A stretch of 64,000 nt of DNA from Hemileia vastatrix (lineage: Eukaryota > Basidiomycota > Pucciniomycetes > Pucciniales > Zaghouaniaceae). The stretch is from contig JASXTE010000005.1 of assembly GCA_030280995.1 (NCBI GenBank), positions 37,545,203 to 37,609,202 of the forward strand, given 5' to 3'. Under the pieces are notes generated by a model, which was not told the DNA's origin, did not search any database, and saw only the letters and a list, made by a program, of their open reading frames with translations. Of the stretch, positions 11,222 through 44,700 are shown one piece after another. The position numbers and the translations under genes were made by a program. How positions within the stretch are numbered: position 1 is the stretch's first letter; every line of letters starts with the position of its first letter.

Positions 11222-11818
11222 AATTATATAGGAATATATTTGTTGCTCAAGAATATCACTAAAGCTCAAAAAGATGAAGATTTTTGCTTATGGGACACTC
11301 TACCTTCCTTTAACTCTTTTCTTGCTCTTCGACTCTCAAAGCACTGTAATAAAGCATTTGAAAAAAATCATGAGCTTGCAACCAAAGTTGGAATACCGAA
11401 TTGGTGTGACTCCGAATGGGAAGATATCAGCCACAAATATCTTTTATTTTCTAATGTTATTATCACTCATTCTGGATTTCACAATAAAATTCACACCAAT
11501 ACCAAGGACACCAATTTTCTTACTTTTGGTATATTCTCATATATCAAACCAATTACTGGCCAACCAATACCATCTCCAGCTAAAATCAAATGACATGGTT
11601 TATATTTTCCAGACCACTGGTGCATCATTGATTTTGGTTTGGGAAATGGTATCATCAAAACTATTTGGAATTCTTCTAAGGATAATCATCAAACGACCAA
11701 AGCTCCTCCTGGTTTGGAATCCTGTCAAGATTTAACACATTTTGGTTGCTCATTTCAAATCAGTCATAAGTTGATTCAAAGAATCAATAAGGTAATGAAA
11801 GAAGGTAAAGTTAATTGA
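11222..11818 (+). pseudogene. Tet-like 2OG-Fe(II) oxygenase gene, copy 2 (one stop, 5' exon missing)
   Basis: This is the best-preserved oxygenase-like copy. The frame opens near 11222 after an intron-like TTATATAG, includes MLLKNITKAQKDEDF at 11240, and runs through PNWCDSEWEDI, THSGFHNKIHTN, FGIFSYIKPITGQP, one in-frame TGA (11591-11593), GLYFPDHWCIIDFGLGNG, DNHQTTKAPPGL and HFGCSFQISHKL to a TGA at 11816-11818. The upstream exon with the GFGWRPGF-type motif, seen at 62991-63321, is absent. The HxD position reads H-T-N, so metal binding is doubtful. The conserved 3' block follows at 11938-12310. Confidence 0.6.
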
Positions 11819-12310: not shown

Positions 12311-12368
12311 TATAGAATTTTTTTGACTTGTAAATATTTTGGTGAAAATTTTTGACGAGAATGTGAAA

Positions 12369-13251
12369 GTAATTGTTTCCACCTTGAGCAGGTTTCTGGC
12401 TCAAAGGAATCGCAGTACCATCAACAAAACCAATACATCCTGGGAAGCCCTCTGCTTGCATAACCTGAGATGATTCAAGTTGCTCTTCTTTTGTTGACCA
12501 GGTGAGAAGTTGATGGCAGTGATGCACCGTTTGGTATAAGTGTTAACTGAACCATACCCTAAATCAAAGACATTTTCTAAACATTTCAAAGCAGCTCCAT
12601 TACCATTTGAACCCAAATGACATAGTGTGATGGCCAATTGAATTGAAGGATGTTGTTGTTCTTTTTGAGAATTATTGTGAAATATGGGATGATCCTGAAT
12701 AAGCTCAAGCAATTTAAGGAAACATTCCTGAGAAGTCCTGAACAGCTGTCTAAAACTGGGTGTAGATAGGTTAAGAAGTGTTTGGATGGTGTACTTGGGG
12801 GTATGAAGTACTTGAGGCTTTCTGGGAAGAAGGTAACGTTTCGTGGCCATTTTTGATAAAAAGAAAAAATCTTCTTCTAGATCAGAATCAGAATCGCATT
12901 CAGAGTCCAAGAGCAGTTCAAGAGCCATGAAAGTCATTGCTTTATGTAATTTATCACAATTTGAAAGTGAGGAAGGCATAACTCTTATATGATATGATAT
13001 GAAAATGTAAATGATGTACAATGTTTTGAGTTATGAAGTGTTATGCTGCAGAGTGCTGCGTATGAATGGGATGATGCTGACAAATCAGTGAAATGGGACT
13101 TGATGGTGAAATCAGCACTTTTGGTTGAGAAAGTGTGGATTTGAGTGAAATAAGTGACTTATTTCATTTTGAAATCCACCAGTATTGGGGCTAGTGTGTT
13201 TTGGAAATCCGCACTTATTTAAGTGCGGATTTGCCAGAACTGACACCCCCT
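12369..13251 (-). mobile_element. Truncated PIF/Harbinger-like copy with transposase 5' part
   Basis: Read from the TIR at 13251 (flank AAT), the copy has the same 5' region as element B. The transposase start is near 12979 (MPSSLSNCDK) or 12933 (MTFMALELL). The first exon carries a frameshift near 12515, and the copy ends abruptly near 12369 just after the first catalytic Asp region (GFVDGTAIPL). Exon 2 with the second Asp and the Glu is missing. The breakpoint abuts the 3' block of the Tet-like gene in the orientation opposite to the ancestral order, so this is a rearranged fragment. Confidence 0.8.
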
Positions 13252-17010: not shown

Positions 17011-17333
17011 AATTAGGGGGTATATCAATGTTAGTGGATCTGCAATTAAATTAATTGTGGATAAAAACCATTATACCTCAATGATTTTCCACAATGATTT
17101 TTGAACATAATTGGGTTATAAGACATTATTTTTTGTGACAATGTGTTCACCTCTTATCTAACATTTTTATCCTCAATTTTTCATAACCACATCTTGGACA
17201 ACTTTCTGGATATCCCAGGCTTCCTACCTTACTGCACACTCTCATCCTGTCTATTCATCCTATCTGTTCAAAACCCCCCCCCCCCCATCTCATTGGTTTG
17301 TTTCTTCTCCTTTTCATCTTCAAATTTCTCAAC

Positions 17334-18089
17334 ATGCCTCATTGTCATTGATCTTCTCAAAGACAGCCTTCCCCCCTCCAGTTGTTCTTCAAATCCTATT
17401 AATCCCTCTTTCCCTCACTCAGCTGAGAAATTAAAGACTGTTGAATTTATAAAAAAAAAAAAAAAAAAGATGATCATCTCATTCTTATTGATTAACTGGC
17501 TATAAAAAAAAAAAAAAAAAAAAAAAATTTTTTTTAAACTAATTATGATTCTTGTTTTTGGTACTGGGAATGCAACTCAAGTAGGATGGCCCCTTGCATC
17601 AAACATCAATGGATATCTTCTAATGGCCAATGAATTATGAAATAAGACCAAGGAAAAGGAAAGGATTGATCTTTTGTCTAAACAGATGTCTGAACGTTTC
17701 AAGCATTGCCAAGCCAAATACAAGAAGGCAAAGACTCTTTCATCTTCCACTGGTTTTGGTATTACTGACCTCAATATCAGTAAGGGCATCAAATTCATAG
17801 ACAATAAACTTGATTCTTTATGTCCTTACTTTAAATAGATGAATGCTATTTTTGGAGAGCAAGCTGATGTTAATCCTGCAAACATGTTGGCTGGTGAAGA
17901 GTCTATCTCTCAACATGATGTCAAAAGAAATCTTTTTCCTTTTGCTTCTACTCAAGCCTCACCTCATTTGACTTCCACCAATCAAGACATCTTTTCAATA
18001 GATCCTTATGGCAAAATAAACCAACCTGATCTCACTCCAGTGAGATTTTTATTTCTTGTCTAGTTGTTTTATTTTTTTTATTCGCATCT

Positions 18090-18123
<34 letters not shown>

Positions 18124-18318
18124 CTAAAAAGGCTAATGAAAAAAATGAGGATCCTCAAGAAAGCAAGTCTGAAGCTAGAATAAGAGAAGAAATTTGAGAT
18201 TTCTTTAAAGAGGGATGAGAAAGCACATGATTTGGAGGAGATAAAAAATTTGAGATAAAGAAAGTGGAGAAGGCTCTTGAGTACAATTTCCTATTCAATT
18301 AAATGAAACTCAAGTATC
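17334..18318 (+). pseudogene. Myb/SANT-like gene of element E (broken)
   Basis: An ATG at 17334 opens MPHCH followed by a TGA where the relatives continue. The frame is later disrupted by A-runs (17452-17468 and 17502-17527). Recognisable blocks are PLASNINGYLLMANEL, KQMSERFKHCQAKYKKAK, SSTGFGIT and NKLDSLCPY (to 17835), then MNAIFGEQADVNP (17839 on), an intron with a (TA)n run, and a charged helical tail. The Gypsy element splits the tail at 18318, and the last codons resume at 26802 (LEDDSKKERFLDRM). This is the same family as the gene at 42727. Confidence 0.65.
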
Positions 18319-19093
18319 TGTCACGCGCCACGTGACACTCGAAGCGAAATTAACTCAATAAATCAATAATATCGAGTCCTAAATCTATACTCGAAGCGCA
18401 GAAAGCAATTCTCCATAGCAACTGCGATTTTCCTTTGTGTAATGCTATTTAACTGCGCTAGCCTAAACTCTAAATCTAAATTAGTCAATCTCCCAATAGG
18501 GTACCTTAGTCCTTTTCAATAAGCGACGCACAGCGCTAGGATCAACGAAATAGTATAGTAGTAGTTTTTTTCCATTAAAGTTGTTAATTAATTAAGAGGG
18601 ACAAATTGAGCATGAACGGATATTTAGTAGAGAGGGTCTAAGTGTATGTTAGTAATGGTCAATGGAACGGGAATGCTGTGATGGAAGGGAGGTCAATGCG
18701 AGGAGGAACAAAGGATATAAAAGGAGTTGAGTATTTGGTTCGATATTCCTTAGAATTAAATTATAATATCGTATTTACATTAATAGTGGTAAAAACCTTA
18801 AAAGTTAAATCATTGTTATTGTATCTTTCTTTTACCTTCTCAAATATTCATTTCTAAATCCTAAATTTTTGATTATTGAGTTTCCAACCCTTCGTGAGAT
18901 TTTAAGAATTATTATTACCTTGGAACTAGTTTATAATTCTTCTCGATCAAACCTCGAACCTATAGCTATTACTTCGAGTGACCTTCGAATCATTTCCTCG
19001 AATCATTCCTCTGTGCTTCGAAGAAGTTTCTAAAAATCCCTCATCTCACTTACAGGAACATCCTCGACCTTGTGCGTAGGTCGTCCGGTGACA
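18319..19093 (+). repeat. 5' LTR of the chromovirus
   Basis: 775 bp, TGTCAC...GTGACA, preceded by GTATC. The same length as the 3' LTR and nearly identical to it. Confidence 0.93.
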
Positions 19094-19164
19094 GTATAAT
19101 TTAATTCTATGTAGTTCTCATTCTTTGCACTACTACGTCTTTTTAGGTGCTTCTAAAATTTTAA

Positions 19165-20352
19165 ATGGCACCTGTTCAACGCACTCCTCCTACGGGCGCT
19201 ACTACTAGAGCTCGCGCTAGAGGCAGGCCAACAGCCACAAGGTCTGTTTCTCGCACTCACTCTTTGGAACCACTCGACCTTAGGGAACGGCAACATTCAG
19301 TTCAATCTGTAGAAGACATTCCACAAGATTTTGAGGATTCTAGTGATGAAGAAGAAGGAGAGGATACAATGCATGAGGCACCATCCGCCCCTGCCAATCA
19401 CCCTTCTGGCCAATCCTCAGAACCGGGACCATCTAACTCTCAGGAAGATTTCATGAGACTTTTTATGAAAACCCTTTCAAATCCAACGTCTTCAGAGGGA
19501 TCTAAGTTCAAAACTCCTTCTATGAAATCTCCTGACAAATTCGACGGAGATCACCCCGAAAGATTGCGACCCTTCTTGCAAACCTGCAAGCTACTGTTCC
19601 ATAATGACCCTCGAACCTTTAACAGCAACCGATCAAAGGTTGTTTACGCTTCTTCATTCCTAGCCGGGAAAGCAGCAAGATGGTTTGAACCTTATCTACT
19701 CATGCTTTCTTTGACAGAAACCCACTTACTTATCAATAATTGGGAAAAGTTCGAAGACCAACTTTTTACGTTGTTTGGGGACCCTAATGAAATGGACAAC
19801 GCAGAAATTGAACTTGATTTTCTTCGCATGAGTGATAATGGTAAAGCCTCTAAATATATCTTGAACTTCAGAGCACTTCAAACTCGAGTAGGTTGGAATG
19901 ATGCTGCCCTTAAGTATCATTTCAGGAAAGGACTTCCTTCGAGGATTCTGGATCAATTAAATCTTCATGGTCAGAAGATGACTACTTTAACGGATTTAAT
20001 GGATCAAACCCTCGAACTTGACGGCGTTTATCAAGGAAGACTTCAACATCGTCGATATGCCAACAAATCTCAAGGCCTAAATTTTAAATCGGGACCTTCT
20101 TCACACCCACGACCAAATCAATCCTCCTCAACTCAATCCAAACCCAATAAGGGAAAGGATAAACCTCGACCAAAAGGCTTGACCCCAGGCGATATCAGCA
20201 AAGTACTGGATCCTAAAGGGGAACTTAAAGAAGCTGAGAGGAAGAGAAGAGCAGATAATGGGTTATGTATGTATTGTGGGGGTAAGCACAAGTTGGAAGA
20301 CTGTGTAAAGTTGAAGGAAAGAGAAGGTACTAGTTCGAAGTCAAAAAACTAG
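19165..20352 (+). CDS. gag: Chromovirus Gag
   Basis: 395 residues, uninterrupted. An N-terminal disordered Arg/Pro/Ser-rich segment and an acidic patch (DSSDEEEGED) precede a retrotransposon Gag region (KFDGDHPERLRPFLQTCKLL, AARWFEPYL, FEDQLFTLFGDPNE, KYILNFRALQTRVGW). A C-terminal zinc knuckle is CMYCGGKHKLEDC, with spacing C-x2-C-x3-H-x4-C, one residue shorter than the usual x4. It packages element RNA. The pol frame starts 15 nt after the stop in another frame. Confidence 0.9.
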   Translation: MAPVQRTPPTGATTRARARGRPTATRSVSRTHSLEPLDLRERQHSVQSVEDIPQDFEDSSDEEEGEDTMHEAPSAPANHPSGQSSEPGPSNSQEDFMRLFMKTLSNPTSSEGSKFKTPSMKSPDKFDGDHPERLRPFLQTCKLLFHNDPRTFNSNRSKVVYASSFLAGKAARWFEPYLLMLSLTETHLLINNWEKFEDQLFTLFGDPNEMDNAEIELDFLRMSDNGKASKYILNFRALQTRVGWNDAALKYHFRKGLPSRILDQLNLHGQKMTTLTDLMDQTLELDGVYQGRLQHRRYANKSQGLNFKSGPSSHPRPNQSSSTQSKPNKGKDKPRPKGLTPGDISKVLDPKGELKEAERKRRADNGLCMYCGGKHKLEDCVKLKEREGTSSKSKN

Positions 20353-20366
20353 TAGATAGTTTACTT

Positions 20367-23300
20367 GTGTGCAAAGCAAACTATCTTATCTCTCCCAGTG
20401 CACAGAACCTCCATGTATTAAGGACTGGAGTTGCCTTAAACCACTTGAGATTCATTATTTTTAAGGAGGATATCCCCTTCAGTTGTCTTATAGACTCTGG
20501 AGCTTCAATTTCTTTTGTTAGTTTATCTTTTGCCGAGAAGCTTCAACTAACATTTACAGATATCAATCAAACTCCCATCTATTTGGTTGAATCAGAGGAA
20601 CCCAAATATTGGGTAAGTAAGAAAGTTTTATGGGTTTTCAACTTTCCGAATTTTCCCCCCTTCGAGTGGGAATTATCAGTCTTGGACGCCCCAAGGATGG
20701 ACGATACCATTCTTGGCCATGACTTTTTAACGCATTGGAATCCCGAAATTGATTGGACTAGGGGATTGATCACCCCACGCTCTAAGTATATTTCTGATTC
20801 TTCAATGCAGGTCAATAGGGAGTTAAACAACCCGCCTGACAACGTCCTGCTAGAGGACAAATCTCTGCCAGATGACTTGCAAGCATCTGTACCTTCTTTA
20901 AATGAGAAATTGGCTAACCCTTCTAGCTCAATGACTTCACTCGAAGAGGATTTAAATTGCCTCGAAGTAATCGAATTATGCTCTCTCAATACAGGTATCA
21001 CCTCGACAGATTCTCTCGAAGATGAAGAGGACAACCAAATAAACGTTGAAGCCATCAAATCAACTCTACCAGAAATCTACCACGATTTCCTCGATGTTTT
21101 CTCAATCCGCAAGGCCGATAAGTTACCACCTCATCGACCCTACGACCATCAAATAGAGTTAATAGGCCCAGTACCTCCGGCAGGTCCTGTCTATTCTTTA
21201 TCGAAGGACGAATCTCAAGTTCTTCGAGACTACATTGCAGAGAATGTAGCCAAAGGTTTCATCAGAGCCAGTAAATCTCCAACCGGCTCCCCTGTCCTCT
21301 TTGTAAAAAAGAAGGACGGTAGCCTTAGGTTGTGTGTTGACTATAGAAAGCTCAACAAAGTCACAAAGAAGAATGCATATCCTGTTCCTCCTATGTCATT
21401 ACTTCTTACCCTTTTCAATGGTGCTAATTTCTTTTCTAAAATTGATCTTAGAGGCGCTTACAATCTTATTCGCATTGCGGAAGGTCATGAACCACTGACT
21501 GCAATGGGCACTAGATTTGGTAGTTTTGAATATTTAGTTATGCCTTTTGGATTATGTAACGCACCTTCAACTTTTCAAACTTTTGTTAATGATATCTTTC
21601 AAGATGTTGTTGAACAATTTGTAGTCGTCTATTTAGATGATATTTTAATATTCTCGAAAACACTGGATGAACATATTCATCATGTTTGACAGGTCCTAAA
21701 TCGTCTTCGAGATCATGGTCTCTACGCCAAGCATAATAAATGCAAATTCCACCTCAAATCAATTGATTTTTTGGGTTTTACGTTGTCCACTGACGGTTTA
21801 GTCATGGATGACAAAAAAGTGCAGAAAATCCTGGAATGGCCTGAGCCCAAAAACATTAAATCACTCCAAGGATTTTTGGGTTTTGCAAACTTCTATAGAA
21901 GATTTATTAAAGATTACTCTAAAACTATTTCCAATCTTACTTCTCTTCTTAGAAAAGATATTCCTTTTGTTTTTACTTCTACAGCACGAAAGGAATTCGA
22001 AGCACTAAAAACGGCGTTCACCACAGCCCCAATTCTTCAACATTTTGATCCTTCCGCCTCGACAATAGTTGAGACAGATGCGAGCAATTATGCTATTGCA
22101 GGGGTCATCTCCCAATTAAATCCTGAAACAAATTTGTTTCATCCTGTTGCTTTTGAGTCACGCAAACTCATAGCCGTGGAATTAAATTATGAAATTCATG
22201 ACAAAGAGCTTTTAGCTATTATCCATTGTCTTAAAAAATGGCGTTCTTTTCTTCTCAGCCTAGATAGTCCTTTTCAAATTTTAACAGATCATAATGCTTT
22301 GAAATACTTCATGTCTTCTAAAGTGTTAACCAGGCGTCAAGCCAGGTGGGCTGAATTTTTGTCTGAATTTTCTTTCTCTATTTCCTATCGCCCAGGAAAA
22401 AACTGCATTGTCCCAGATATCTTGTCACGTCCGGACGACGTTTACCCACAGCGGGGGGACGCATTTGCTGACAAGAACCCAGCAAATGTGCAATCAATCT
22501 TCAACGAATCAATGTTAACGACTCATCAACTTAATTCGATGACAATTCAATCTTTTCGAAATCCACTATCCAACATCCTCGAAGCTCAGTCAAAGGACGA
22601 TTATTGTTTAGGGTTAAAAGACAAAATACTCTCGAAGCAAGGGGCCAAGAGATTTAGTATTGAATCAGGTCTATTAGTCTTCAAAGGTAGAGTAGTCATA
22701 CCCGACAACAATGAGATAAAATTATGGATTTTCAATAGTCGACATGATTCTCCGTTAGCTGGTCATTTTGGGGTTGATAAAACCTACCAGTTAATAGCGA
22801 GGGATTTCTTCTGGCCAGGTATGACCAAGGAAATCAAGGCCTATATAAAAGCTTGTTACAAATGTAATAGGAATAAGGCTCCCCGTCACCGGAAGCATGG
22901 GTTGCTTCAACCACTTCCTATTCCCTCTAAACCTTGGGAATCTTTATCGATGGATTTCATTTCTCAACTTCCTATTTCTAATGATTTTGATGCTATATTA
23001 GTAATAGTAGATAGATTTTCAAAAATGTCTATTTTTATTAAAACCACTACTACTGCTACAGCAGAAGATTTGTCAAAATTGTTTTTAGAATACGTATTTT
23101 CTAAACACGGCTTACCAAATGATATTATTTCAGATAGAGGCTCATTGTTTGTATCCACATTCTGGACCCAACTGTGTCGACAACTCAATATCACGAGGAA
23201 TCTCTCCACAGCCTATCACCCTGAAACCGATGGTCAAACAGAAAGAGTTAACCAAATCCTCGAACAATATCTTCGAATGTATGTTAGTTACCAACAAGAC

Positions 23301-23999
23301 GATTGGACCACATGGCTACCATTGGCCGAATTCACTTATAATAACTCGACTCATTCTTCGACACGACAATCTCCCTTCGAAACCATTTATGGACGACATC
23401 CTCAATTCAACTCAATTCATGTAGGAACTAATCATCCTGTGGAACATTATCTTTGAACTATATCACGACTCCAAGAAGAACTTAAAACAAATTTGGAATC
23501 AGCGATTCGAAGATACAAGGAACAGGCCGACAAACATCGACAATCTGCTCCTTCCTTTAAACCAGGCGACAAAGTATGGCTCGATGCACGAAACATCCGA
23601 ACAACAAGACCATCAAAGAAACTGGCTGAAAAGCGCTTGGGACCGTTTGAAATCGACTCTGAAGTCTCTAAAACTGCATTTCGACTCAAGTTACCTCCTA
23701 AATGGCAGGCAATTCACCCTGTTTTCCATGTATCTCTCCTGGAACTGGCTCGAGAAATATACCCGGGCAAGAACCAACCCCCTCCGGAACCGGTCGAAGT
23801 AGAAGATCATCTAGAGTGGGAAGTAAGTCCTATCCTTGATTCAAGAATACGCAAGGGGAAACTTCAATACCTCGTGGAATGGGAAGGCTTCCTCAATGAC
23901 TCAGACAAAACATCCTGGGAACCAGCCATCAATGTTTCTAACGCTCCTGAACTCCTAAAATCTTTTCATGCGAAATATCCTTTAAAACCAAAACCTTAA
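20367..23999 (+). pseudogene. pol: Chromovirus Pol: PR-RT-RNaseH-IN-chromodomain, two TGA stops
   Basis: A single frame of 1211 codons is broken only by TGA at 21687-21689 and 23454-23456. Domains in order: aspartic protease (CLIDSGASISFVS), RT (LFVKKKDGSLRLCVDYRKLN, FSKIDLRGAYN, VVYLDDILIFSK), RNase H (TDASNYAIAGV, YEIHDKELLAI), the HHCC zinc motif (DSPLAGHFGVDKT...CYKCNRNK), the integrase core (MDFISQLP, DIISDRGSLF, TDGQTERVNQ), a basic C-terminal module, and a chromodomain (LQYLVEWEGFLNDSDKTSWEPA). Both stops fall where Arg is expected, consistent with CGA to TGA. Otherwise well preserved. Confidence 0.9.
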
Positions 24000-24586
24000 A
24001 ATTTCTTTACTTAAAATTTTTTTTTCTTTTTCTTTCTTTCTTTAAAATCTAAAACACCTCTTAAATTTCTTAGCCTTGTTTTCTTTTTTCTCTCTTCTTT
24101 TTTCTTTCTTCTCCTTCTATAAATTTCCTCCAAAACCAACTAAAAATAAAATCAAAAATAAAATTAAATACAATAAAATAAAACAAAATAAAATCAAAAT
24201 TGAAATTAAATAAAATTAAATTAAATTAAATTAAATAAAATAAAATAAAATAGAATAAACATAAATAATAAAATAAAATAAAAAACTCATAAATCTCTCT
24301 AAATATTTTCTTTCTTTTCTTCTTCAATTCTTTAAATACATTCTTTTCTTAAATTTAAAATTCTCTTCAAAAATTTCTCTTTCAAAAAATTTATTCTCTC
24401 TTTTAAAGACTTTCTTTCCTTCGAATCATCAAATCCTGTATGGCACGACCATTTCCTCGAACTTAACTTCAACCCCTGAATCTCCCTATAATAATTCTTC
24501 AAAACAAATAAATCTTCTTTTTAAACTCTCTTAAATTCTACACTTTGTTTTTTTCTTTTCTTTCTCCTCTTTTTCAAACTAAAATT

Positions 24587-24625
<39 letters not shown>

Positions 24626-24985
24626 AAAATCCTAAATTTAACAAACTCATCTCAATCACAAAACCGTTTCTTTTTCTCTCTCTTTTCTTACATAAAAATT
24701 TTCCTTTTAAAAACACTAAAACTTCCTTCAATTAAAACAACCTTTTTTCTTTCTTTAAAGTTCTTCTTTCAAATTCTAAAATTTTTTATTTAAAACTTCT
24801 TTTTTCTTTTTTTTCTCTTCTTTTTCTCTCTCTCAAATCTTGTAAAATTAACAACATTCCCCTACAATAAAAAAAATAATACCAATAATAAAATAAAATA
24901 AAAATAAAATAAAACTAAAATACAATTTTTTTTTTCTACTTCTTTCCATCTCCTTTTCATTTCAAATTTTTTCTTTTAATTTTTC
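24000..24985. other. Low-complexity AT and pyrimidine-rich spacer in the chromovirus
   Basis: TTTCTTTT-type and (TAAAA)n-type runs, plus a poly(A) of about 32 near 24592-24623. No coding sense is visible. It separates pol from the convergent antisense gene. Confidence 0.7.
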
Positions 24986-25913
24986 TCAAACCAATCTTTT
25001 CATTTTCTCCAAAACTACCCTTATCTCCTTCCTGCATTTATCAAATACCTCCTCCTCTCCTACCGGAACCACCTCTCCAATCTCCAAGAGCTCCTCCGCC
25101 ACGTCGAAGGAAGCAGCGTCAATAATAGCGTCGACCTCCCCACATAGTTCTTCCGCGAACCTTACTCGTTGACCTTGACGAGGTTTCTTTGACCACACCT
25201 GGTCCAGGGTGTCTTCGGGCTCTTCAACTACTTCCGTGGCTGGAGGGTTTGCCTCAGTTGGTATAACCGGAGCAGGCTCCGCAATCGGCTCTTCCAGGTT
25301 ATTCGATGTCTAAAACAAGACTCATCAGTAACTTCATCCTTGAAATAAAACAATTAAAACTTACCTCGAAGATGGGATCAGGCTCCAGAAATAACCTGGG
25401 CGCCACTTCGACTTCTGCCTCTCTCTCTTCCTCATCGTCCTCGATGACCACCCGTCGTTTCTTGGGTGCCCGCCCTGGAACAGGGACTTCATCTTCATCC
25501 TCCTCCACCAATTTGTCGACCTCTTCCTCGACACCTCGCTTCGAACTCGTGGCCTGGGTTACCCAGGTTGAGATCTCGTTGTTCATCTCCTTATCATTTT
25601 CCCCCACCGATTGTTCATCTTCGATCAAGACATCCCAAATGTCTTTGACCACCTCTTTGGTCTTCGGAACTACCCAAAATTTTGTTTTTGTAAATCTTTT
25701 TTCGATTTCCGCGTTCTTCGTCAACGCATCGCACGCCACTCGCCGCCAATGGCAAAACTTGCATTTCTGGCGAGGGCCTCGAGTCGCCGTACTTTTGACA
25801 CAGAAATATTCCATGCTTTCACAAGCCGTGCAAGTCTGTGAAAACTGTTGTGTGATTATTCCCCCATCCGCTTTAGGGTGTGGAGGCGTGGGTGTGGGAG
25901 TAGGGCAGTTCAT
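24986..25913 (-). CDS. Antisense cargo gene in the chromovirus, cysteine-cluster protein
   Basis: Two exons on the minus strand, 25913-25365 and 25309-24986, with a 55 bp GTAAGT...TTTTAG intron, give about 290 residues with frame kept. The N-terminus is Pro/Thr-rich. A cysteine cluster near residues 30-60 has spacing C-x2-C-x6-C-x12-C-x2-C-x6-C (CTACESMEYFC and CKFCHWRRVAC), reminiscent of a fungal Zn2Cys6 cluster with a lengthened loop. Long acidic stretches and a basic patch (PGRAPKKRRVV) follow. It lies between pol and the 3' LTR, reading away from the 3' LTR, so a promoter near 25914-26021 is implied. The function is unknown; DNA or RNA binding is only a guess. Confidence 0.65.
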
Positions 25914-26021
25914 TATAAAATAAATAATTGAGAGATGAGGGGAAAAGTATTAGACAAGGGAAATTAGTGTGGGAAGATGGTTCAAGCTCAACGGAGTTTG
26001 CGTTTTTTATACCCGGGCATC

Positions 26022-26796
26022 TGTCACGCGCCACGTGACACTCGAAGCGAAATTAACTCAATAAATCAATAATATCAAGTCCTAAATCTATACTCGAAGC
26101 GCAGAAAGCAATTCTCCATAGCAACTGCGATTTTCCTTTGTGTACTGCTATTTAACTGCACTAGCCTAAACTCTAAATCTAAATTAGTCAATCTCCCAAT
26201 AGGGTACCTTAGTCCTTTTCAATAAGCGACGCACAGCGCTAGGATCAACGAAATAGTATAGTAGTAGTTTTTTTCCATTAAAGTTGTTAATTAATTAAGA
26301 GGGACAAATTGAGCATGAATGGATATTTAGTAGAGAGGGTCTAAGTGTATGTTAGTAATGGTCAATGGAACGGGAATGCTGTGATGGAAGGGAGGTCAAT
26401 GCGAGGAGGAACAAAGGATGTAAAAGGAGTTGAGTATTTGGTTCAATATTCCTTAGAATTAAATTATAATATCGTATTTACATTAATAGTGGTAAAAACC
26501 TTAAAAGTTAAATCATTGTTATTGTATCTTTCTTTTACCTTCTCAAATATTCATTTCTAAATCCTAAATTTTTGATTATTGAGTTTCCAACCCTTCGTGA
26601 GATTTTAAGAATTATTATTACCTTGGAACTAGTTTATAATTCTTCTCGATCAAACCTCGAACCTATAGCTATTACTTCGAGTGACCTTCGAATCATTTCC
26701 TCGAATCATTCCTCTGTGCTTCGAAGAAGTTTCTAAAAATCCCTCATCTCACTTACAGGAACATCCTCGACCTTGTGCGTAGGTCGTCCGGTGACA
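26022..26796 (+). repeat. 3' LTR of the chromovirus
   Basis: 775 bp, followed by GTATC (26797-26801). The differences from the 5' LTR include CG to CA or TG changes. Confidence 0.93.
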
Positions 26797-26801
26797 GTAT
26801 C

Positions 26802-27290
26802 AACTTGAAGATGATTCAAAAAAAGAAAGATTTCTTGATAGAATGAGTTAAAGTTAATAAATTTTATTAATGAAATTGAGCACTGAATGAAAATGTTGGA
26901 TTGATGACTAGTTTTTTTTTATTTCATTCATATTTAATTCCAAATTTTATTAGAAAATTTTCTTGATAGGATGCATTAAAGCTAATCATCAATCCTTGGT
27001 ACACGCTCCTCACTGAGATGTGAAACCTTTTATTGCAACATTTTAGATTATTTGTTTGGTTGGTTAACTTCATTTTGTTTTATTTATTTATTTATTTTTA
27101 TTTTTATTTTTTGGTGATAATTTCATATGTGCTAACTTTTTAAAGTTCTTGATTCTAGATGTTTGTTTGTTTGTTTGTTTTTTTTTTTGCAAAAATTTTT
27201 TTTTTAAAAAACTCATACATTTTTTCTTCTTTACATTCAAATCATTAAAATTTACTTTTCTAAATACAGCCAAGTCAACACCACTCTATA
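26802..27290. other. Interior of element E: end of Myb-like gene, then AT-rich remnants
   Basis: The first 50 bp finish the Myb-like gene. Near 26990-27050 is a short piece (ACACGCTCCTCACTGAGAT) that also occurs upstream of the Myb-like gene at 42600, so it is PIF-derived. A (TTTG)n run is near 27160-27180. Nothing else is recognised. Confidence 0.5.
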
Positions 27291-27690
27291 TCTGTTTTAA
27301 AAATTTGGCAATACTCCCCCCCCCTCAATGTATTTTATTGAAGCAAGGGGTGTGTATCACCAAAAAAAAATTTTCTAAATCATCAATTTCACATGTCAGA
27401 TTTGAAAATTTGGCAATACCCTCCCCTGCATGTTATTGAAGTAAAGGGTGCAAATCACCAAAATTTAATTTAATTACTTCAATTAATACATAAGATTGGT
27501 CAAATTTACTAGTTTTAAAGTAATGATGATTCCTCAAGCCAAAATGCGGATAAAATCTAGAAACTAAGTTTGGGATTGTCCACAGGTATAGGCTAAATGA
27601 CCCCCATTTTTTTAAAAAAAAAAATTAATGTTATCATGATTACCATTTATACAACACAAAGTCATTAGCCCATTATGTTAGTTTAGTAAA
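27290..27690 (-). repeat. Conserved noncoding block 3' of Tet-like gene, copy 3
   Basis: The reverse complement of the blocks at 789 and 11938: two GGCAATAC...TTATTGAAG motifs about 105 bp apart, then the segment with GGGATTGTCCACAGGTATAGG and TTATCATGATTACCATTTATA. Confidence 0.6.
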
Positions 27691-28092
27691 TCAAAATATC
27701 ATATTTATTTATCAAAAATGGATAAAAGAATCATAAATGTTGGATAACTTTACAAATCTACATCCTTTTTGGATCTATCTAACGTTTTTTTTTTTTTTTT
27801 TTACCTTGTTGATTTTTTTTAAGGATTAGTTTTTATTTTATTAATTTTTATTATTTTTTTTATTTTTTTGATGTATTTGGAAGGAGAACCCAATATGAGT
27901 AGTAAATTTGTGACAAAATTTTAAAACCTGGGAAAGATTTTTTTTTGTTTGGTGATTATCATGAGATAAGTTCCATACTGATTCAATGATACCATTTCTT
28001 AATCCAAAAACAATTATACATTTAAGATCCAGAAAGTATAACCCGTGAACTTTTATTTTAGCTGGTGAAGGAATAGGTTGTCCAGTAATAGG

Positions 28093-28498
28093 TGTAAGAA
28101 CCAATAGTTATTTTATAATTTTATTTTATTTTTCTATATATATATAAGTGTAGACAATCATTAGACATGTGCACATGTCACATTGTTTTGTGGTGTTCTT
28201 ATTTTTGCTACTCAATCATATACTTATAAATACATATTTTATATATACATATTGGGTGACATACTAATTTAAATACTGGGCTATGTTTCTTTATTTTCTT
28301 GTCTTTTTCTTCTTGCTCAATATTATCTTTATTTTATTTATTAGGTCAGATTTATTGACTCTTAATATTTTTTTTAATTATATTTATTAATTACTTTATT
28401 TCTGTAAATAGGTAACAGCGGCATAGACCACCTTTAAGGGAAGTTCATATATTGATGACTGTTTTATTTTTACTTATAAAAGTCAAAAGGTTGCTTTA
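28093..28498 (+). repeat. 5' LTR of Copia element
   Basis: 406 bp beginning TGTAAGAAC, with a (TA)n run that may serve as promoter. It is preceded by ATAGG. Confidence 0.9.
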
Positions 28499-28517
28499 GG
28501 TTATGGGCCCAGTGCCT
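28499..28517 (+). promoter_or_regulatory. Primer-binding site matching internal initiator tRNA-Met
   Basis: GGTTATGGGCCCAGTGC starts directly after the LTR. It is complementary to the anticodon stem-loop region of eukaryotic initiator tRNA-Met (GCxCTGGGCCCATAACC), not to the tRNA 3' end. This is the half-tRNA priming known for Drosophila copia and Ty5-type elements. Confidence 0.8.
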
Positions 28518-28523
28518 CAGTGA

Positions 28524-29336
28524 ATGTCATCCAACAATTCATTTACTATCCCATTGCCAGCTTCTTCAAATAACTCTGATCACTCCTCAGCAAGTTTTGA
28601 TACTGCTAGACCCTCTTCTCCACTCAGAATGGATACAAATAATGAAACCTCTGTCAATACTCTCAGAAACATTCCAGTTCTTAGCGTCAATAACTTTCAT
28701 GAATGGAGGATCAGGATGAGAGCCCTTCTCACTTATCAAGATCTTAAGAATCTTGTTTTTGGTCTTGAATCACCACCGGCGCAAGATGCTGCTCAAACAA
28801 TCAAGTTGGAATTTCAAAGAAGAGCTGATAAAGCCACCAATATTCTCATTTCAAAACTTGATGCAGCCAACATTGCTGCTTTTTTTACTGATGACAACAT
28901 GGACAAGCCGTGGCAAATATGGGAGAAACTGTCAAACCAATATGCTGCAGCAGATGCATCCAATTGTGCTTTGATTTTTGCTCAATATCACGACGTCAAA
29001 TGCCAAGAAGGCAATCTTATGGGTTTTGTCAATGAATTACAAACCCAAATTAATGAACCAGGATCTGTAGGTGTTTCTGTCAAGAGTGAAAATGAAGCTC
29101 ATTGATTATTAAGACAATTACCTGAATCCTATTTGACTTACAAAGCATTAATTCTTCATGCTTGTGAAGTTACTCAAACTCATCTCTCAGTCTCAAATTT
29201 ACTCTCTCGTTTAGCTCGTTTATCTGTGGAAACCAAATCTGAAAACTCATCAAGCTCTCATTCTGCTCTATTAATTAAAGCTAAAGCTAATCAAAAGCAA
29301 GAAAAAGTGGGAGCTCTGCTGAGATGGAAAGCATAA
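28524..29336 (+). pseudogene. gag: Copia Gag
   Basis: The frame from ATG at 28524 has an in-frame TGA at 29103-29105 and continues to 29336. It contains VNNFHEWRIRMRALLTYQDL, ADKATNILISKLDA and WEKLSNQYAAADASN (UBN2-type Copia gag), then LPESYLTYKALILHAC. The zinc knuckle expected near the end is not clearly preserved. Confidence 0.8.
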
Positions 29337-29493
29337 TCCAAAGGCTAAACATTCCGAAGAAGATTGTTTTCAACTTCATCCAGAGAAACAAAAGAATAGA
29401 AATGCATCCAGTACTTCAAAACCTGACAATGAAATACATGCTAATATTAGCTGTGGCCCTGCTAAGATTTTCAAGGCAAATCTATCAATATCT

Positions 29494-32400
29494 TTGTCAA
29501 AACAACTCATATTTGATAGCGGTGCTACTTGTCATATGATTAAGCAACATTCGAATTTTAAAACTTATCATCATTTTAGATGCCTGATTAAATTAGAAAA
29601 TGGCACAATTATCAATAGCACGGGAAAAGGATCAGTCAATCTTGTCACTCCAAGAGAGGTCATCACCCTAACCGACTGTCTACATGTACCTCAGATTAGC
29701 CAAAACCTTATAGGAATTGGACCATTTATCTCTCATGGTTGTAATCAACAAACCAATTGTAATGGTTACATGACAATCATGAGATCAAATGAGATCATTC
29801 TAGATGGAAATTGGGACAAATCTGAGGGTCTTATCATTCTAAATGCAGATTTTGGTGAGTAACATGTTCCCTGCCTAAAATCATTTCTCACATCTAATTC
29901 AAAAACTCTATGGCACTTTAGATTAGGACACTCAAATTCACAATATCTTGATAAGATTCAATCAAAACTCAGTTTCAATTTTTCTTGTTATTCTTGATTT
30001 TTGCAAGCCATGTGTTAATGCAAAACATTGTCATAGCCCATTTTCTGTAATTTTACCTAGAGGAACTCGGTTTTTAGAATACCTTCATTGTGATATTAGT
30101 AGAAAAATTTCCCCACCTTCTTATGGAGTAGTGTCATATTATTTTAAGATTAAAGACTCTTTTACATCTTTCCATTTTGTTTTCTTGTTATCTCATAAAT
30201 CTGATACATTCAAAATCTTTGGTCAATTTAAAAATCAAATTGAAAATATATCAAATTGCAAAATTGCAAACTTTGTATGTGATGGGGGTAGTGAGTTTAT
30301 AAATAAAGATATCAAAAGATTAAGCACTGAAGATGGATTCAAAATGATCGTAACCTCACCTTATACACCACAACAAAATCCAATTGCAGAGCAAGGTAAT
30401 CGAATAACTACCAAAATGGCCAAAGTGCTTCTTTTTCATGCAAAAATGCTGACAGAATTTTGGGGCGAGGAAGTTAATACTGCATTTTATCTAGAAAATA
30501 GATTGCCATCTTCATTAATTAATTTTGAAACACCATATGATATGAGGTAAAAAAATGATCCTAAGCTTACTCATTTGAGGGTTTTTGGTTGTGCTGCATA
30601 TGCGCTAATTGACAAATCAAAGAGGGGAGGAAAATTTTATCCAAATGCAGTGAAGTGTTGCTTTCTTGGTTACACTGAAGATACCAGCTCATATCGATTA
30701 CTTTGACTTGATAACAGATCTATCATTTATTCAAATAATGTGACATTTGATGAATCATCATTTCCCATTCAAGACATCTCTTTGCATAATTCTTTCTCTG
30801 AAATATTTTTTGATGATGTAGTTTCAATGTCATCTGAAAATTATGTATCAGATAATGTGGATCACACTCCTTCACAAGAAAATCAGGAAGATACAAATGA
30901 AAAAAGCATTCCCATCAACAAATATTGGGATTATCATCTGACTCCAAATGTAGCACCAAAAAACATTAGTTCTTCAGTTGACACTGGTAATATTATAGAA
31001 TCTAATCAATGAAGAATCCTGAGAAAATTGAACTCATCAATTGAAATTAAAAATTATTTATCAATGACAAGTTCTATAAATTCACATTCTCTGCATAACA
31101 ATGTACCTGATATTTATTTATCTGATCCCCTTACGTATTTTGAAGCAATCAATCGTAGAGATGGAGATTCTTGGCACAATGCAATAAATCAGGAATTGAA
31201 CATGATAAAGAATCAAGGAGTTTATGAGATTGTTGAACGACCTCCTGATGCTTCCACCATAGGTTCTGTGTGGGTTTTTAAAATTAAGAAAGATGCAGAC
31301 AGTAATATTCATAAATACAAGGCACGTCTCTGTGCTCAAGGCTTTTCTCAAAAATCTGGAGTTAATTATTTTGAGACATTTGCTCCAACTGGGCGTCTAA
31401 CAACATTACGAGTTCTCATTAGTCTTGCCACTTGTGAAAATTGGAGTTTCATTCAAATGGATGTCAAAGGGGCCTTTCTCTATGGCAAACCAGATGAACA
31501 AGGTTACATGAATATTCCGTTGGGCATGGAAAAACCTTCTCATTTTCATACACCTGTTTTATTGTTGAAATGTTCACTTTATGGCTTAAAGCAAGCTTCA
31601 AGGTGTTGGTATACTGAATTATTAAATTTCTTTAATTCAATTAATTTTTATCCTTCAGCTGCAGATCCTTGTCTCTTCATACATGAGAGTACAACACATC
31701 CTTGTTATGTTCATGTACATGTGGATGATCTCTCAATTTTTGGCAAAGATATTTCCTGGTTCAAAGATGAGATTCAATCAAAATTTGATAGGGAAGACCT
31801 TGGAGATTCAAAGTTTATTTTAGGAATGAGGGTCACAAGAAATTGTGATAAAGGAACATTATCATTATGTCAAGATCAAGAAATTAGAGATCTACTTGCT
31901 TCATACAACATGCTAAATTGTAAACCATCAAATACCCCGATGCAGATGAACACTCAACTCTTACCAGCAACTGAAGAAGAAGTCAAAATTTTCTTAAACC
32001 TTAATATAAATTATTGACAAGCAGTTGGAAGGCTTAATTATATCACTCAAGCAACACAACCTGACATTGCTTTCATTAATAGTCAGATTGCTCAACATTT
32101 AAATAATCCAGGTATAAAACACTGGATGGCTTTTAAAAGAGTTCTTCATGACTTGAAAGGCACAATACAACTTTCACTTTCCTTTTATTCTGATCTTTAT
32201 TTTGTCAACAACGGTCATTATAGTTATTCACTTCCAACAGGCTTTGCTGATGCTGATTGGGCTGGTTGTCAAGTAACTCGTTGCTCAACTACTGGTTATG
32301 TTTTTATTATTAATGGTACTGCAGTCAGTTGGCACTGCAAGAAACAACCTACAGTAGCTCTAAGTACTACAGAGGCTGAAGAAAAGGCAACTGTTGATGC

Positions 32401-32731
32401 AGCGCAAGAAGTAATATGGATGCAGAATCTCTTCAGTGATCTTGGTTTTGACTGCAAGTCTTCATCCAAACTATTTTCTGATAATCAAGGTTGTATTGCA
32501 CTATGCAAAAACCCCATGTTTCATGCAAGAACTAAGCATGTTGAAATACAGTTTCACTGGATTAGGGAGCAAGTATTGAATGGCAAAATTGATCTACAAT
32601 ATACTCCATCATGTGATATGATTGCAGATGTGTTTACCAAAGCTCTCAGTAAGGAAAAATTTAACACTTTTATTAAAAAAATTTGTCTGAAAGATATGAT
32701 TGATAGCAAGGAGGGGTGTAAGAACAAATAG
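29494..32731 (+). pseudogene. pol: Copia Pol: PR-IN-RT-RNaseH with stops and a frameshift
   Basis: Protease: LIFDSGATCHMI (29494 on). After a frameshift between 29862 and 29948, integrase has HCDIS, FVCDGGSEFINKD and TPQQNPIAEQGNR. RT has WVFKIKKDADSNIHKYKARL, QMDVKGAFLYG and VHVHVDDLSIFG (the YVDD variant HVDD). RNase H has GFADADWAGC, ALSTTEAEE and ARTKHVEIQFHWIRE. In-frame stops are TAA at 30548 and TGA at 30704, 31010 and 32015. Those at 30704 and 32015 replace an expected Arg. Confidence 0.88.
32706..32716 (+). promoter_or_regulatory. Polypurine tract of Copia element
   Basis: GCAAGGAGGGG abuts the 3' LTR, the usual position of the plus-strand primer. Confidence 0.8.
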
Positions 32732-33122
32732 TTATTTTCTAATTTTATTTTATTTTTCTATATATATATAAGTGTAGACAATCATTAGACATGTGCACAT
32801 GTCACATTGTTTTGTGGTGTTCTTATTTTTGCTACTCAATCATATACTTATAAATACATATTTTATATATACATATTGGGCGAGATACTAATTTAAATAC
32901 TGGGCTATGTTTCTTTATTTTCTTGTCTTTTTCTTCTTGCTCAATATTATCTTTATTTTATTTATTAGGTCAGATTTATTGACTCTTAATATTTTTTTTA
33001 ATTATATTTATTTATTACTTTATTTCTGTAAATAGGTAACAGCGGCATAGACAACCTTTAAGGGCAGTTTGTATATTGACGACTGTTTTATTTTTACTTA
33101 TAAAAGTCAAAAGGTTGCTTTT
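32717..33122 (+). repeat. 3' LTR of Copia element
   Basis: 406 bp, followed by ATAGG at 33123-33127. Confidence 0.9.
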
Positions 33123-33212
33123 ATAGGATTGATATAAGAGAAGATCCCCAAAGTAAGATAATTGGCATCATTAGAATTGGTATATATCTTGTTATGAAAT
33201 TCTGAACAGCAA

Positions 33213-33910
33213 TAGAGTATCTAGAAACAAGACAAAATGTTAGTTTATGAATGATAAGAAATTGGAGAATGTTTAGAAGAACCCCTTTTTTTCTAATCAA
33301 CATAATGGTTTCCATCATGAGCAGGTTTTTGACTCAAAGGTATTGTTGTACCATCAACAAAACCCACACAGCCTGGGAAATATTCAGCTTGCATTACTTG
33401 ATAGGATTCAAGTCACTGTTGTGGGGCTGGCCAAGGAAGTGTTTGAGACTTGAGTGAAAGGATAGCAATCATGCAGTGCTTGGTGTATAATATGACAGTA
33501 CCATATCCTATGGTAAAGAGATTATCTAAAAGTCTTATAGAAGCACCATGTCCATTTGAGCCAAAGCAACAGCAAGTTGAATGGCAGCATCACACTGTTT
33601 GTTATGAGAATTATTATGGAAGATAGGATGATTGAAGATGAGTTGAGAAAGTTTTTAAAAAAGAATCAGGAGAAGTTTGAAATAGTTGAATGAAGTTTAG
33701 TTGAGGAATGTTGAGAATGGAGAGGAGATTATATCTGGGATCATGATAAAGATTTGGCCCCCTTGGGATGATGTAACACTTTTTGGAAAGATAAGACATA
33801 GAAGCTAAAGTATCTTCCAAACCAGAGTCAGAATCAGAGTCAGCAGCTAAAACTAATGTGATAGCATTCATAGCTGTGTGAATTTGCTTCCTAGCAGAGA
33901 GTTGCTTCAT
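33213..33910 (-). pseudogene. HARBI1-type transposase of element E, 5' part only
   Basis: Start near 33910 (MKQLSARKQIHTAMNAITLVL). It continues with the acidic DSDSDSGLED, PRGPNLYHDPRYN and HPIFHNNSH, then with frameshifts to GFVDGTTIPLSQKPA (first catalytic Asp, near 33340). A decayed intron and the start of exon 2 (YSIAVQ, near 33225) follow, where the sequence jumps to the Tet-like gene. Exon 2 with the remaining catalytic residues is gone. It is clearly diverged from the copies in elements A and B, matching its different TIR sequence. Confidence 0.8.
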
Positions 33911-34300
33911 TATTGTCGGTAGAAAAGGCTGTTGGTAGAAGGTTTAGGTGATGAGTGGGAAGTGGGAATTTGCCACCAAATGAGCAGGGAGGTATGTTGA
34001 TAGAAAAAAAAAATCTTAAGTTTTCACTGCCAAAATTAAGTGGCCTAGAGTGAAGAGAGACATAAGAAAATTATATGTCATGTAACTTGCTTACAAATTA
34101 ATTGTGGATGTGATGAGTTTGGGATCATGAGTTAGGAATGAAAATTGGGGTATTAGAGGCAGGATAATGCATTATGATGGATTCCTTATCCACTAGCCCT
34201 GGGGCTAGTGGATAAGAATCTTCTGCAATTAATAATGTCTGATCTCAGGAAAAAAAATTTCTGATCTCTAATTGCAGATCCCTGAACATTGATACCCCCT
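33911..34300. other. 5' flank of transposase and right TIR region of element E
   Basis: Noncoding. It contains a perfect hairpin (TTATCCACTAGCCC and its complement near 34187-34215) and ends in the TIR ...TTGATACCCCCT. Confidence 0.7.
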
Positions 34301-42381: not shown

Positions 42382-42726
42382 AGGGGGTGTCAGTTTTGGC
42401 AAATCTGCAATTAACTTAAGTGCAGATTTCAAAGCAAATCAGCACTTAAATTTTGAAAAAAAGTCACTTATTTCAAAAATGGGTGTCAGTTATGACTTCA
42501 AATCAGCACTTTTTTCCCAATTTTTTTTTTCACAACCACATTTTGGCCACATCATCTCTGTCACATAAGACACACAGACCTCCATCCCCTCATCAATCCC
42601 TGGCACACACTCCTCACTGAGATTTGAAACATTTTATTGTGACATTTTAACCAGGCATGTTTTTTTCCTTCTTTTTTTATATTTTCAATGTCTTTACATC
42701 TTTTCCTGTAACATACCATTTTCATA

Positions 42727-43955
42727 ATGCCTCCCAGAAAATCCAACACTCAAAAGGCAACTAAAAAAATGCTACATCACAAAGGTCTTCCCATAATGCA
42801 AGCCCCTCACCAGAGAAATCAAAGTCTGGACAGCTAAAAAAGGAAGATTATCTCATCATCATCAACTTACTCAAAATTAAATCAAATTATGATGCATGTT
42901 TTGGATGTGAGAAGTCCACCCAAATTAGATTTCCACCTTAATCAAAGGTCAATGGCTTCTTGTTAATGGCAAATGAAGTGAAATGAAAACAAAAGGGAGA
43001 ATCAACATCAATCCTAAGCAAATGAAGGAGAGTTTCAAAAGCTATCAATACAAATACAAAAATGCTCACTTTGCTTCCACTTCCACTGGATTTGGTATTG
43101 ATGATGATGATTTGGAGATAGGAATTACTATCGTTTCCAAAAAGCTCAACATCATGTGTCCTTTCTATGAGGAACTGGATAATATTTTTGGTTCCCGAGT
43201 TGATGTCAACACTTGTTTTATACACAATACTACTAAGAATATGCCCTCTGGATCTCATCAAGCCAATAATACTCCCAACACACCTGAAACTCAAGGACAT
43301 CAATCCCCTCCAGCTTCTAACCATAGTTCACCTGAAGATGATCCCAACTATCAAGCAGAACAATTATTTCAAAGTAGATCTGAGTCCTCAAAGCCCCAAA
43401 ATTTAAATGTATTTTTAATTTCTCTTTTTTCTTCAATTATTAGCTAAATTTCTCATTCTTTCTTTTCTAGTCTCCACCTACTCAAACTCAAATTTCTAAA
43501 AAGAATAATGATTCCAGAAATGACAATCCTGCTTTACAAGCTGCTTTAGATGAACTTCCTGAACCCTCTAGCTCAAACTCTAAATTAAAGCATTGGGATT
43601 CAACCTCAATGAACTTGAACCATCTTTTAAAACATGGTAATACTTCAACCACCTCTTTATCCTCCCTTGATAATTATTTTGAAAAAAGATATAAGTAAGA
43701 TTCAGTCACTATATATCTTCTTCAATAACATATTTATTTTTTTCTATTCAATTTTCTCAGCAAAATCCTCTATTTCAAAAAATGCCCTTGACTTTGAGAA
43801 GATGAAGTTTTATCATATGCTAATAAAAGATGAATGGTCCTTAGATTTGGAGGAAATTTTTTTTTTGCTTCAATCAAATTTTGAAAAGGCTAAATTTGAG
43901 GCAGAGGAGATGGAAAGAGCTCACCTTTGCTTGGAGAAAACAATAGACCATTAAT
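42727..43955 (+). pseudogene. Myb/SANT-like gene of element D, nearly full length but frameshifted
   Basis: An ATG at 42727 opens MPPRKSNTQ, and a frameshift in an A-run follows. Then come KSGQLKKEDYLIIINLL, NYDACFGCEKST, LLMANEV, NINPKQMKESFKSYQYKYKNAH, FGIDDDDLEIGI and CPFYEELDNIFGS (to about 43195). A Ser/Pro/Asn-rich linker, a GT-AG intron (43409-43470), LNHLLKHGNTST, and after a second intron a charged helical tail (FEKAKFEAEEMERAH) complete it. In-frame stops occur near 42940 and 42982. It provides the template for recognising the other Myb-like fragments. A DNA-binding role for transposase targeting is inferred from Harbinger biology. Confidence 0.65.
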
Positions 43956-44319
43956 TTAAAAGAGAAATAGCCAGTCATGAATTGGAAAAACAAGAATTTT
44001 TTTAAAAAAAGAGTTCATTACAGAATTTATATAAAATAGCCAATCATATGAGGAGATTAAAAAATTACTCAGATTTTTTAATTGATTAATTTTTTTTTTG
44101 GTTAATGGTTGGTGAATTAATTTTAATCTTATCAAAAATAGTCATATCATGAGATTATGATAACACCATTTTTCTTTACTGGACTCTAAAATATTGCACT
44201 TTTGGAATTACAGATGGTGAAATAATATTGACAATTGAGTGAAAATCCTCATCACCAACATAATTTTATCATATTACCAAAAATTTGCATTTCTAAATAG
44301 AGCTAAGTCATCAAAATTC
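43956..44319. other. Spacer between convergent Myb-like and Tet-like genes of D
   Basis: AT-rich; includes the diverged tail of the Myb-like gene (near 43960-44050). No other feature. Confidence 0.5.
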
Positions 44320-44700
44320 TATATCTGTTGGAAAAATTTGGCAATACCCTCCCCTGCATTTTATTGAAGCAAGGGGTGGGTATCAAAAAAATTTTCTAAG
44401 TCATTAATTTTCCAGGTCAGATTTGAAAATTTTTCAATACCCTCCCCTGCATTTTATTGAAGTAAGGGGAGAAAATCACCAAAATTTAATATAATTTCAA
44501 AAATTTATAAATGAATAAATAAGATAAATCAAACTCACTAGTTTTAAAGTAATTAAAGTTCCTCAAGCCAAAAAGTGGACCAAGTCTAGAAACTGAGTTT
44601 GGGACTTTCCACAGGTATAGGCAAGATAAACCCCATGAAATAACTTAATGTTATCATGATTACCATTTATACAAAACAAGGTCATTGGCTCATTACTTTA
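44320..44700 (-). repeat. Conserved noncoding block 3' of Tet-like gene, copy 4
   Basis: The reverse complement of the blocks at 789 and 11938: two GGCAATACCCTCCCCTGC-type motifs (44340 and 44440), then GGGACTTTCCACAGGTATAGG and ATGTTATCATGATTACC. Confidence 0.6.

Follow-up and report, generated by a model that had tools for sequence, protein, structure and literature searches.

A very large Harbinger-type transposon family of Hemileia vastatrix with a TET/JBP-like gene that was probably exchanged several times

We analysed a window of 64,000 nucleotides from the rust fungus Hemileia vastatrix (contig JASXTE010000005.1, positions 37,545,203 to 37,609,202; coordinates below are those of the window), which harbours a transposon, element E (17015..34300), flanked by facing terminal inverted repeats (TIRs) and ATT duplications. 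Element E is likely a broken copy of a very large PIF/Harbinger family whose members encode a transposase, a probable Myb/SANT-like protein and a TET/JBP-like dioxygenase; the latter would counter CpG methylation, and its gene appears to have been swapped several times. As all its genes are broken, element E alone is weak evidence, and the proof comes from other loci of the same genome, designated by L-numbers, namely L022, L062 and L063+L064. We chose 20 intervals resembling facing TIR pairs from the first 100 TIR places of the genome, which is not a random sample, and added five TET-match loci from a genome search with PF20515 and two more stretches. Some numbers designate the same copy (L049=L059, L054=L060, L056=L061, L031=L065), and L001 and L002 are the ends of L009.

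The TIR word AGGGGGTRTC, with at most one mismatch, occurs 15 times in the window (10 exact), against a mean of 3.2 over 100 shuffles, all of which stayed below 15. Across the 748-Mb genome, exact words number 14,932 + 14,836, compared with 635 + 630 for a reversed control word. Both controls rule out a chance TIR. The PF20515 search of the genome returned 10,849 first-look candidates, a loose count that perhaps includes other families; each of the 150 that were scored exceeded the cut-off, and the same search found no match in any of 14 control genomes. The genome-wide numbers rest on these two approaches, the TIR word count and the PF20515 search.

Flanking triplets are identical on both sides, AAT or ATT (AWT), in 19 of the 20 TIR pairs, with L026 as the exception, and matching flanks also border L062 (AAT), L063+L064 (ATT) and element E (ATT). 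L059, L060 and L061 do not enter this comparison of paired ends. Among 58 distinct TIR ends, 29 follow ATT, 26 follow AAT and 3 follow another triplet. The joined flanks of five elements (L010, L012, L014, L017 and L028) match uninterrupted copies of their targets with a single AWT. Other targets are less clear: those of L021 and L022 are just 70-75% alike, and for L027 seven targets, which are Myb-like gene copies, read AGG, AGA or AGC at the position of the ATT of the inserted copy. L018 and element E have no rows in this comparison, as their flanks hold another element's TIR. L027 itself is a 195-bp miniature inverted-repeat transposable element with GTATC-type TIRs, located within the Myb-like gene copy of a larger family member. 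Elements of the family also adjoin end to end, at 17001-17015 of the window and at L018, L026 and L061, where one copy begins at the AWT (or AATT) beside the end of another.

These duplications bear on whether the family is simply PHISTA, which is described in Kojima 2025 (PMC12730594, December 2025). According to that work, seven lineages of rust DNA transposons carry TET genes, among them the TET-bearing Harbinger families named PHISTA, which have TA duplications and occur in six rust species, Austropuccinia psidii included; their third proteins are described as devoid of Myb/SANT. If our family were PHISTA, its duplications would be TA, its ends would have been read one base off and its third protein would not be truly Myb-like. 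The kind of host and the gene set are alike, the Myb matches presented below stay under the cut-off, and the ten exact window ends, all with TA directly before GGGGG, first suggested a TA duplication. However, the middle base of AWT agrees on both sides in the 19 identical pairs, and empty sites should be longer if the duplication were a 2-bp TA, whereas the five clean ones hold exactly one AWT; a TA duplication is thereby ruled out for the H. vastatrix family. The third protein moreover matches a Myb profile in two subfamilies. We therefore regard plain identity with PHISTA as rather unlikely.

Coding content of the loci was determined by tblastn (E <= 1e-4). The first-pass annotation, made from the window alone, had proposed TIR, transposase, Tet-like gene, reversed Myb-like gene and TIR as the ancestral order. 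Precisely this arrangement, with transposase (+), TET (+) and Myb-like (-) genes, is seen in the unrearranged L022, L062 and L063+L064, which measure 5.8-7.5 kb, so that the presence of TET and transposase between shared TIRs is not confined to rearranged copies. L062 has an open TET frame of 393 residues, a Myb-like frame of 252 residues and a transposase gene with one stop. The annotation had also suggested looking for intact three-gene copies. In L063, all three genes are stop-free over the stretches compared: 185/199 and 184/184 codons for the transposase blocks, 362/368 for TET and 165/165 for the Myb-like gene, the last comparison covering the earlier part of the gene. The 7.5-kb L063+L064 also includes the beginning of the transposase gene, a TIR at its right end and ATT on both sides. 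A predicted GT-AG intron between the transposase blocks would keep the frame. Of 18 intervals longer than 2 kb, 17 contain transposase matches, 12 match the query TET (L013 partially) and 13 match the Myb-like protein (L011 and L017 with its start only). All three genes are found in seven of them, or eight if the divergent TET of L016 is counted. L011 is a 2.6-kb derivative with both transposase blocks stop-free and no TET.

In element E, a GTATC-subfamily copy, both ends proposed at first pass were confirmed: the left TIR (17015-17024) is AGGGGGTATA with one mismatch, the right TIR lies at 34291-34300, and ATT flanks them at 17012-17014 and 34301-34303. The remnants of the three genes expected once two retrotransposon insertions are subtracted were also recovered, in the order Myb-like (+), TET-like (-) and transposase (-). 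The Myb-like remnant (17371..17877, +) is 60% identical to the L009 protein by tblastn and has two stops when aligned to the L022 protein. It is followed by a Gypsy-order long terminal repeat (LTR) retrotransposon (18319..26796, +) coding for protease, RVT_1, RNaseH and integrase, with 782-bp repeats that are 99.2% alike and a 5-bp GTATC duplication. The downstream part of the TET-like gene (27874..28092, -) has 69.9% identity to residues 297-367 of the L022 TET; it matches PF20515 with E=0.0074, under the cut-off. A Copia-type LTR retrotransposon (28093..33122, +; RVT_2, 407-bp repeats 97.5% alike, ATAGG duplication) splits this gene, whose upstream part (33128..33205, -), including a mutated HxD region, matches L022 TET from residue 271. 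Lastly, the first part of the transposase (33284..33871, -) has 48.8% identity to that of element A, another element of the window, and five stops. Both insertions are thus real, with their own duplications.

The transposase is of the HARBI1 type. The window copy matches DDE_Tnp_4 (1.3e-25) and the D-D-E residues are present, which rules out a KDZ transposase and, together with the 3-bp duplications, upholds the PIF/Harbinger assignment made at first pass. Among the best 120 of 171 homologues, the top ones come from Puccinia coronata and P. striiformis (55-56% identity over 98% of the length), followed by A. psidii (46%). In a tree of 51 rows, the H. vastatrix sequences are placed beside the P. 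coronata/P. striiformis clade, with a support of just 86/61 for the unity of their own clade.

The Tet-like assignment was likewise borne out by profile search, with matches to PF20515, the Tet-like 2OG-Fe(II) family, reaching 8e-32 for an open copy, over the cut-off. The HxD...H residues (HTD and H) are kept in six distinct copies that are stop-free over the stretch compared (L022, L041, L049=L059, L054=L060, L062 and L063), and the HxD is mutated in the TET genes of window elements E, B, C and D. Four homologues of the TET protein were found, all from A. psidii, with 29-36% identity. The Myb-like label of the third protein stood in part: it matches Myb_DNA-bind_4 in six of six rows, best E 0.0005, from both subfamilies, but without reaching the threshold. 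As some loci are the same copy, these rows represent five distinct copies. The third protein is probably a Myb/SANT-like DNA-binding protein. Its search against 5.8 billion proteins returned nothing at 1e-3. By eye, a frame further downstream on the same strand looks coiled-coil-like.

Comparisons of the genes among loci indicate that TET has been exchanged on a common backbone. The transposase and Myb-like genes unite L009, L014, L065, L026 and E with support of 100/100, whereas in the TET tree E groups with window element D (98.9/100), and L065 and L026 stand together, away from L009 and L014. When the backbone grouping was forced on TET, the approximately unbiased (AU) test, based on 14 rows with both backbone and TET, rejected four of four constraints (p 0.0186, 0.0005, 0.0027 and 0.0053). 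The TET tree does not include L013, which has too few TET codons, or L016, which the query TET does not match. The transposase DNA of L009 and L065 is 86-88% alike, as opposed to 60% for their TET DNA. The TET DNA of E, over 95-97 codons, is 80% alike with that of D vs 70-72% with those of L009 and L014. Between GTGTC- and GTATC-type elements, synonymous divergence (dS) is saturated for the transposase and Myb-like genes and amounts to 0.9-1.4 for TET. The deletion derivatives L010, L015, L021 and element B combine a GTGTC transposase with an inverted TET of the L009/L014 type. L016 has a GTGTC backbone with ATT on both sides and an oppositely oriented, divergent Tet-like gene, matching PF20515 at 5e-10, with a second piece at 0.007.

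Unequal rates, gaps or hypermutation might mimic such exchanges: the copies are hypermutated, E contributes just ~97 TET codons, and the less strict Shimodaira-Hasegawa (SH) test gave p values of 0.079 and 0.061 for two of the four constraints. Nevertheless, the AU test rejects the backbone grouping in all four cases, and neither the contrast between transposase and TET identities in L065 and L009 nor the inverted, divergent TET of L016 fits an artefact, which we consider very improbable. The presence of different TET versions in related copies suggests that transposons use TET to escape silencing.

The family bears the marks of attack at CpG, despite carrying TET. Among 11-12 aligned copies, which share at least 88% identity across 80% of the segment, majority CpG sites show C>T changes in 8-21% and G>A changes in 13-21% of cases, vs 0.6-2.4% for other C and 0.3-1.2% for other G; in these counts and those that follow, both arms of a single inverted duplication of the window appear as separate transposase rows. 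When one site rule is applied to all, TpG is found in 72 of 368 CpG cells (19.6%), against 1.6% for CA, 2.4% for CT and 2.8% for CC. A looser CpG count gives 31-44% decay, highest for TCG; it is not our main figure, as its CpG rule is looser than that of the control. Judging by the mutation pattern, this decay is the mark of methylated CpG or of CpG targeted by a process resembling repeat-induced point mutation (RIP).

CpG dinucleotides are also found where proteins are likely to bind. Within the terminal 300 bp of 16 elements of the GTGTC type, there are 70 exact copies of ATCCGCACTT and 75 copies with one mismatch, including 52 of ATCAGCACTT and 19 that differ by a CpG transition; in contrast, 69.9 kb of interior sequence has no exact and two one-mismatch copies. 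These counts are not independent because the 16 elements are related. The repeats are likely candidate binding sites of the transposase or the Myb-like protein, and about 60% of them contain a CpG or its decay product. Folded as single-stranded DNA, one element end is predicted to form a strong hairpin (z -7.0).

Escape from CpG methylation is, on sequence grounds, the most likely role of the element-borne TET. The transposase and the Myb-like protein would bind the subterminal ATC(C/A)GCACTT repeats, cut the element and paste it elsewhere. The host would methylate the CpG of the copies, including those within many subterminal repeats, and the element-encoded TET would oxidise 5-methylcytosine (5mC), relieving silencing or restoring binding. 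Such help could act in trans, and the enzyme could be replaceable, which we propose as the reason why the gene was kept and yet swapped several times. A different activity is conceivable, in which the TET-like enzyme makes another modified base or has another substrate, for instance by marking the element's DNA, and does not erase 5mC. Sequence searches of the PDB, which give no TET relative, would be compatible with this, and PMC12730594 likewise allows for other activities of enzymes of this type. The CpG-specific mutations, however, point to the CpG cytosine as the attacked base, though not to the substrate of the enzyme, and we regard this alternative as improbable.

The TET gene might also be a captured passenger, travelling along and useless to the element. 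In five of the 18 TIR-to-TIR intervals, no coding match to TET is seen, with the divergent TET of L016 counted as present, and selection among young copies is weak. Nevertheless, of 35 divergent TET rows compared with L062, all 34 computable ones (33 distinct copies) have dN/dS values of 0.08-0.36, L026 being saturated. Together with the HxD...H residues retained in the six stop-free copies and with several kinds of TET on one backbone, which does not resemble plain loss, these values make a passenger quite improbable. TET was thus constrained between lineages.

A number of results weigh against the escape role as proposed, or against the protein assignments on which it draws. Twelve young TET copies, broken ones included, have dN/dS values of 0.26-0.93 relative to L062, and the 28 pairs formed by eight open or nearly open young copies give 0.26-0.75. 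By these values, recent constraint on TET appears weak or absent; along with the low values between lineages, they indicate that the gene was constrained formerly and has been under little constraint recently. In two young pairs, the dN/dS of the Myb-like gene is 2.7 and 1.9, on very few changes. Most copies fetched carry at least one broken gene, often because of a change at CpG; TET has therefore given them poor protection, and 5mC in the copies is deduced from the mutation pattern. Sequence searches of the PDB gave no credible TET relative; across all the PDB searches, the matches were one at E 0.25 and one at E 0.85, neither credible, and one search had none. The Myb/SANT matches stay under the curated Pfam cut-off. 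The structure models are too poor to use, with pLDDT values of 32.5 for TET (7 alignment rows) and 39.0 for the Myb-like protein (6 rows).

If the escape from methylation is nevertheless correct, this extremely abundant family has, among its standard but exchangeable components, a gene resembling that of a DNA demethylase, and TET swaps are a direct record of the arms race of transposons with DNA methylation. This may help explain how such genomes accumulate DNA transposons even though mutation is directed at CpG.

The window contains four other elements of the family. Element C has a broken TET-like gene (77..613, +; 88% to L022 TET by tblastn, with in-frame stops) convergent with a Myb-like gene that element A interrupts. 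Residues 53-165 of the latter are encoded at 2222..2560 (-; 86%) and residues 1-53 on the other side of the insertion, at 6024..6178 (-; 83%); the region 2240-2560 matches Myb_DNA-bind_4 with E=0.0011, under the cut-off. The right TIR of C (6553..6562, -) is an exact AGGGGGTGTC, followed by AAT. Element A (2562..6023), a derivative that carries the transposase, lies within the Myb-like gene of C and has TIRs at both ends and ATT on both sides. An alternative span, 2562-10161, is likewise bounded by facing TIRs and an ATT on either side, but the shorter one is favoured because the Myb-like gene of C resumes at 6024. The transposase of A (2912..4126, +; blocks 2912-3508 and 3575-4126) is the window copy whose profile match is given above, with one stop in the first block. 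In the assembly, the region 2562-10161 is a large inverted duplication around the nested A and C (2594-4720 vs 8017-10143 and 5325-6495 vs 7148-8318, 99% alike), and a 302-bp unit inside A forms four tandem copies (4419-5624, 98-99% alike).

Element B holds up as a deletion derivative of the same build as L010, L015 and L021, with a TET-like gene (11228..11764, +; PF20515 1.9e-24 for two open pieces joined by X) inverted relative to a transposase fragment (12366..12937, -; 94% by tblastn). Element D (42382..64000) starts with a TIR at 42382, preceded by GAT rather than AWT, and extends beyond the window, where its right end lies. Its broken Myb-like gene (42723..43210, +; 65-68% by tblastn) precedes a TET-like gene in two parts, the downstream one (44869..45290, -; residues 228-368) with the mutated HxD and the upstream one at 62784..63505 (-; residues 2-239). 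Between them is an insertion (45295-62818) with matching repeats at its flanks. The convergent Myb-like/Tet-like pairs described at first pass in C and D are therefore real, each split by an insertion. In the retroelement-rich region 46113-57564, the CpG observed/expected ratio is 0.07, vs 0.80 in the young Gypsy-order element of E, possibly through loss of CpG with age. Likely host genes code for a pyrroline-5-carboxylate reductase (13981-14862) and a class I (cysteinyl-type) tRNA synthetase fragment (36592-37263).

The target duplication of PIF/Harbinger elements is TWA. Like canonical PIF/Harbinger elements and Nuwa, the family described here has a DDE_Tnp_4 transposase with D-D-E residues, TIRs, a 3-bp duplication and probably a Myb/SANT second protein; unlike them, it carries an additional TET gene, and its duplication is AWT (55 of 58 distinct ends). 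The HxD...H residues of the 2OG-Fe(II) dioxygenase are shared with CcTET and AG-type TET/JBP enzymes, while the PDB searches gave the enzyme no sequence match to solved structures. As with KDZ (Kyakuja, Dileera, Zisupton) elements, a DNA transposon is associated with a TET/JBP gene in basidiomycetes. KDZ elements have another transposase and 7-8 bp duplications rather than 3-bp ones (PMC12730594). At first pass, a TET link outside KDZ had been presented as a novelty, a point overtaken by the publication of PHISTA: the idea of a TET-bearing Harbinger element is not new, and PMC12730594 also describes the passage of TET genes from one superfamily to another and considers an anti-silencing role likely. 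Neither a TET-bearing Harbinger element that combines 3-bp AWT duplications with a Myb-like match nor repeated TET replacement inside one Harbinger family was found in the literature searched, which included parts of that article.

It is possible, if somewhat short of even odds, that we are dealing with a second Harbinger lineage of rusts, with true 3-bp AWT duplications, a retained Myb-like protein and TET as an exchangeable cassette on a stable backbone of transposase and Myb-like genes, replaced several times and once by a divergent, inverted version. This lineage would represent a natural experiment on how transposons arm themselves again and again against DNA methylation, and the CpG-bearing subterminal repeats would be where methylation and the TET enzyme meet. 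As in PHISTA, judging by the published descriptions, a Harbinger-type transposase, a TET/JBP gene and a third protein are found together within TIRs in Pucciniales, and TET genes are reported to move between transposons. The family is different from PHISTA by its 3-bp AWT duplication with empty sites, its third protein weakly matching Myb/SANT and its TET as a swappable module. Since duplication length and third protein both differ, these results bear on the PHISTA definition as published.

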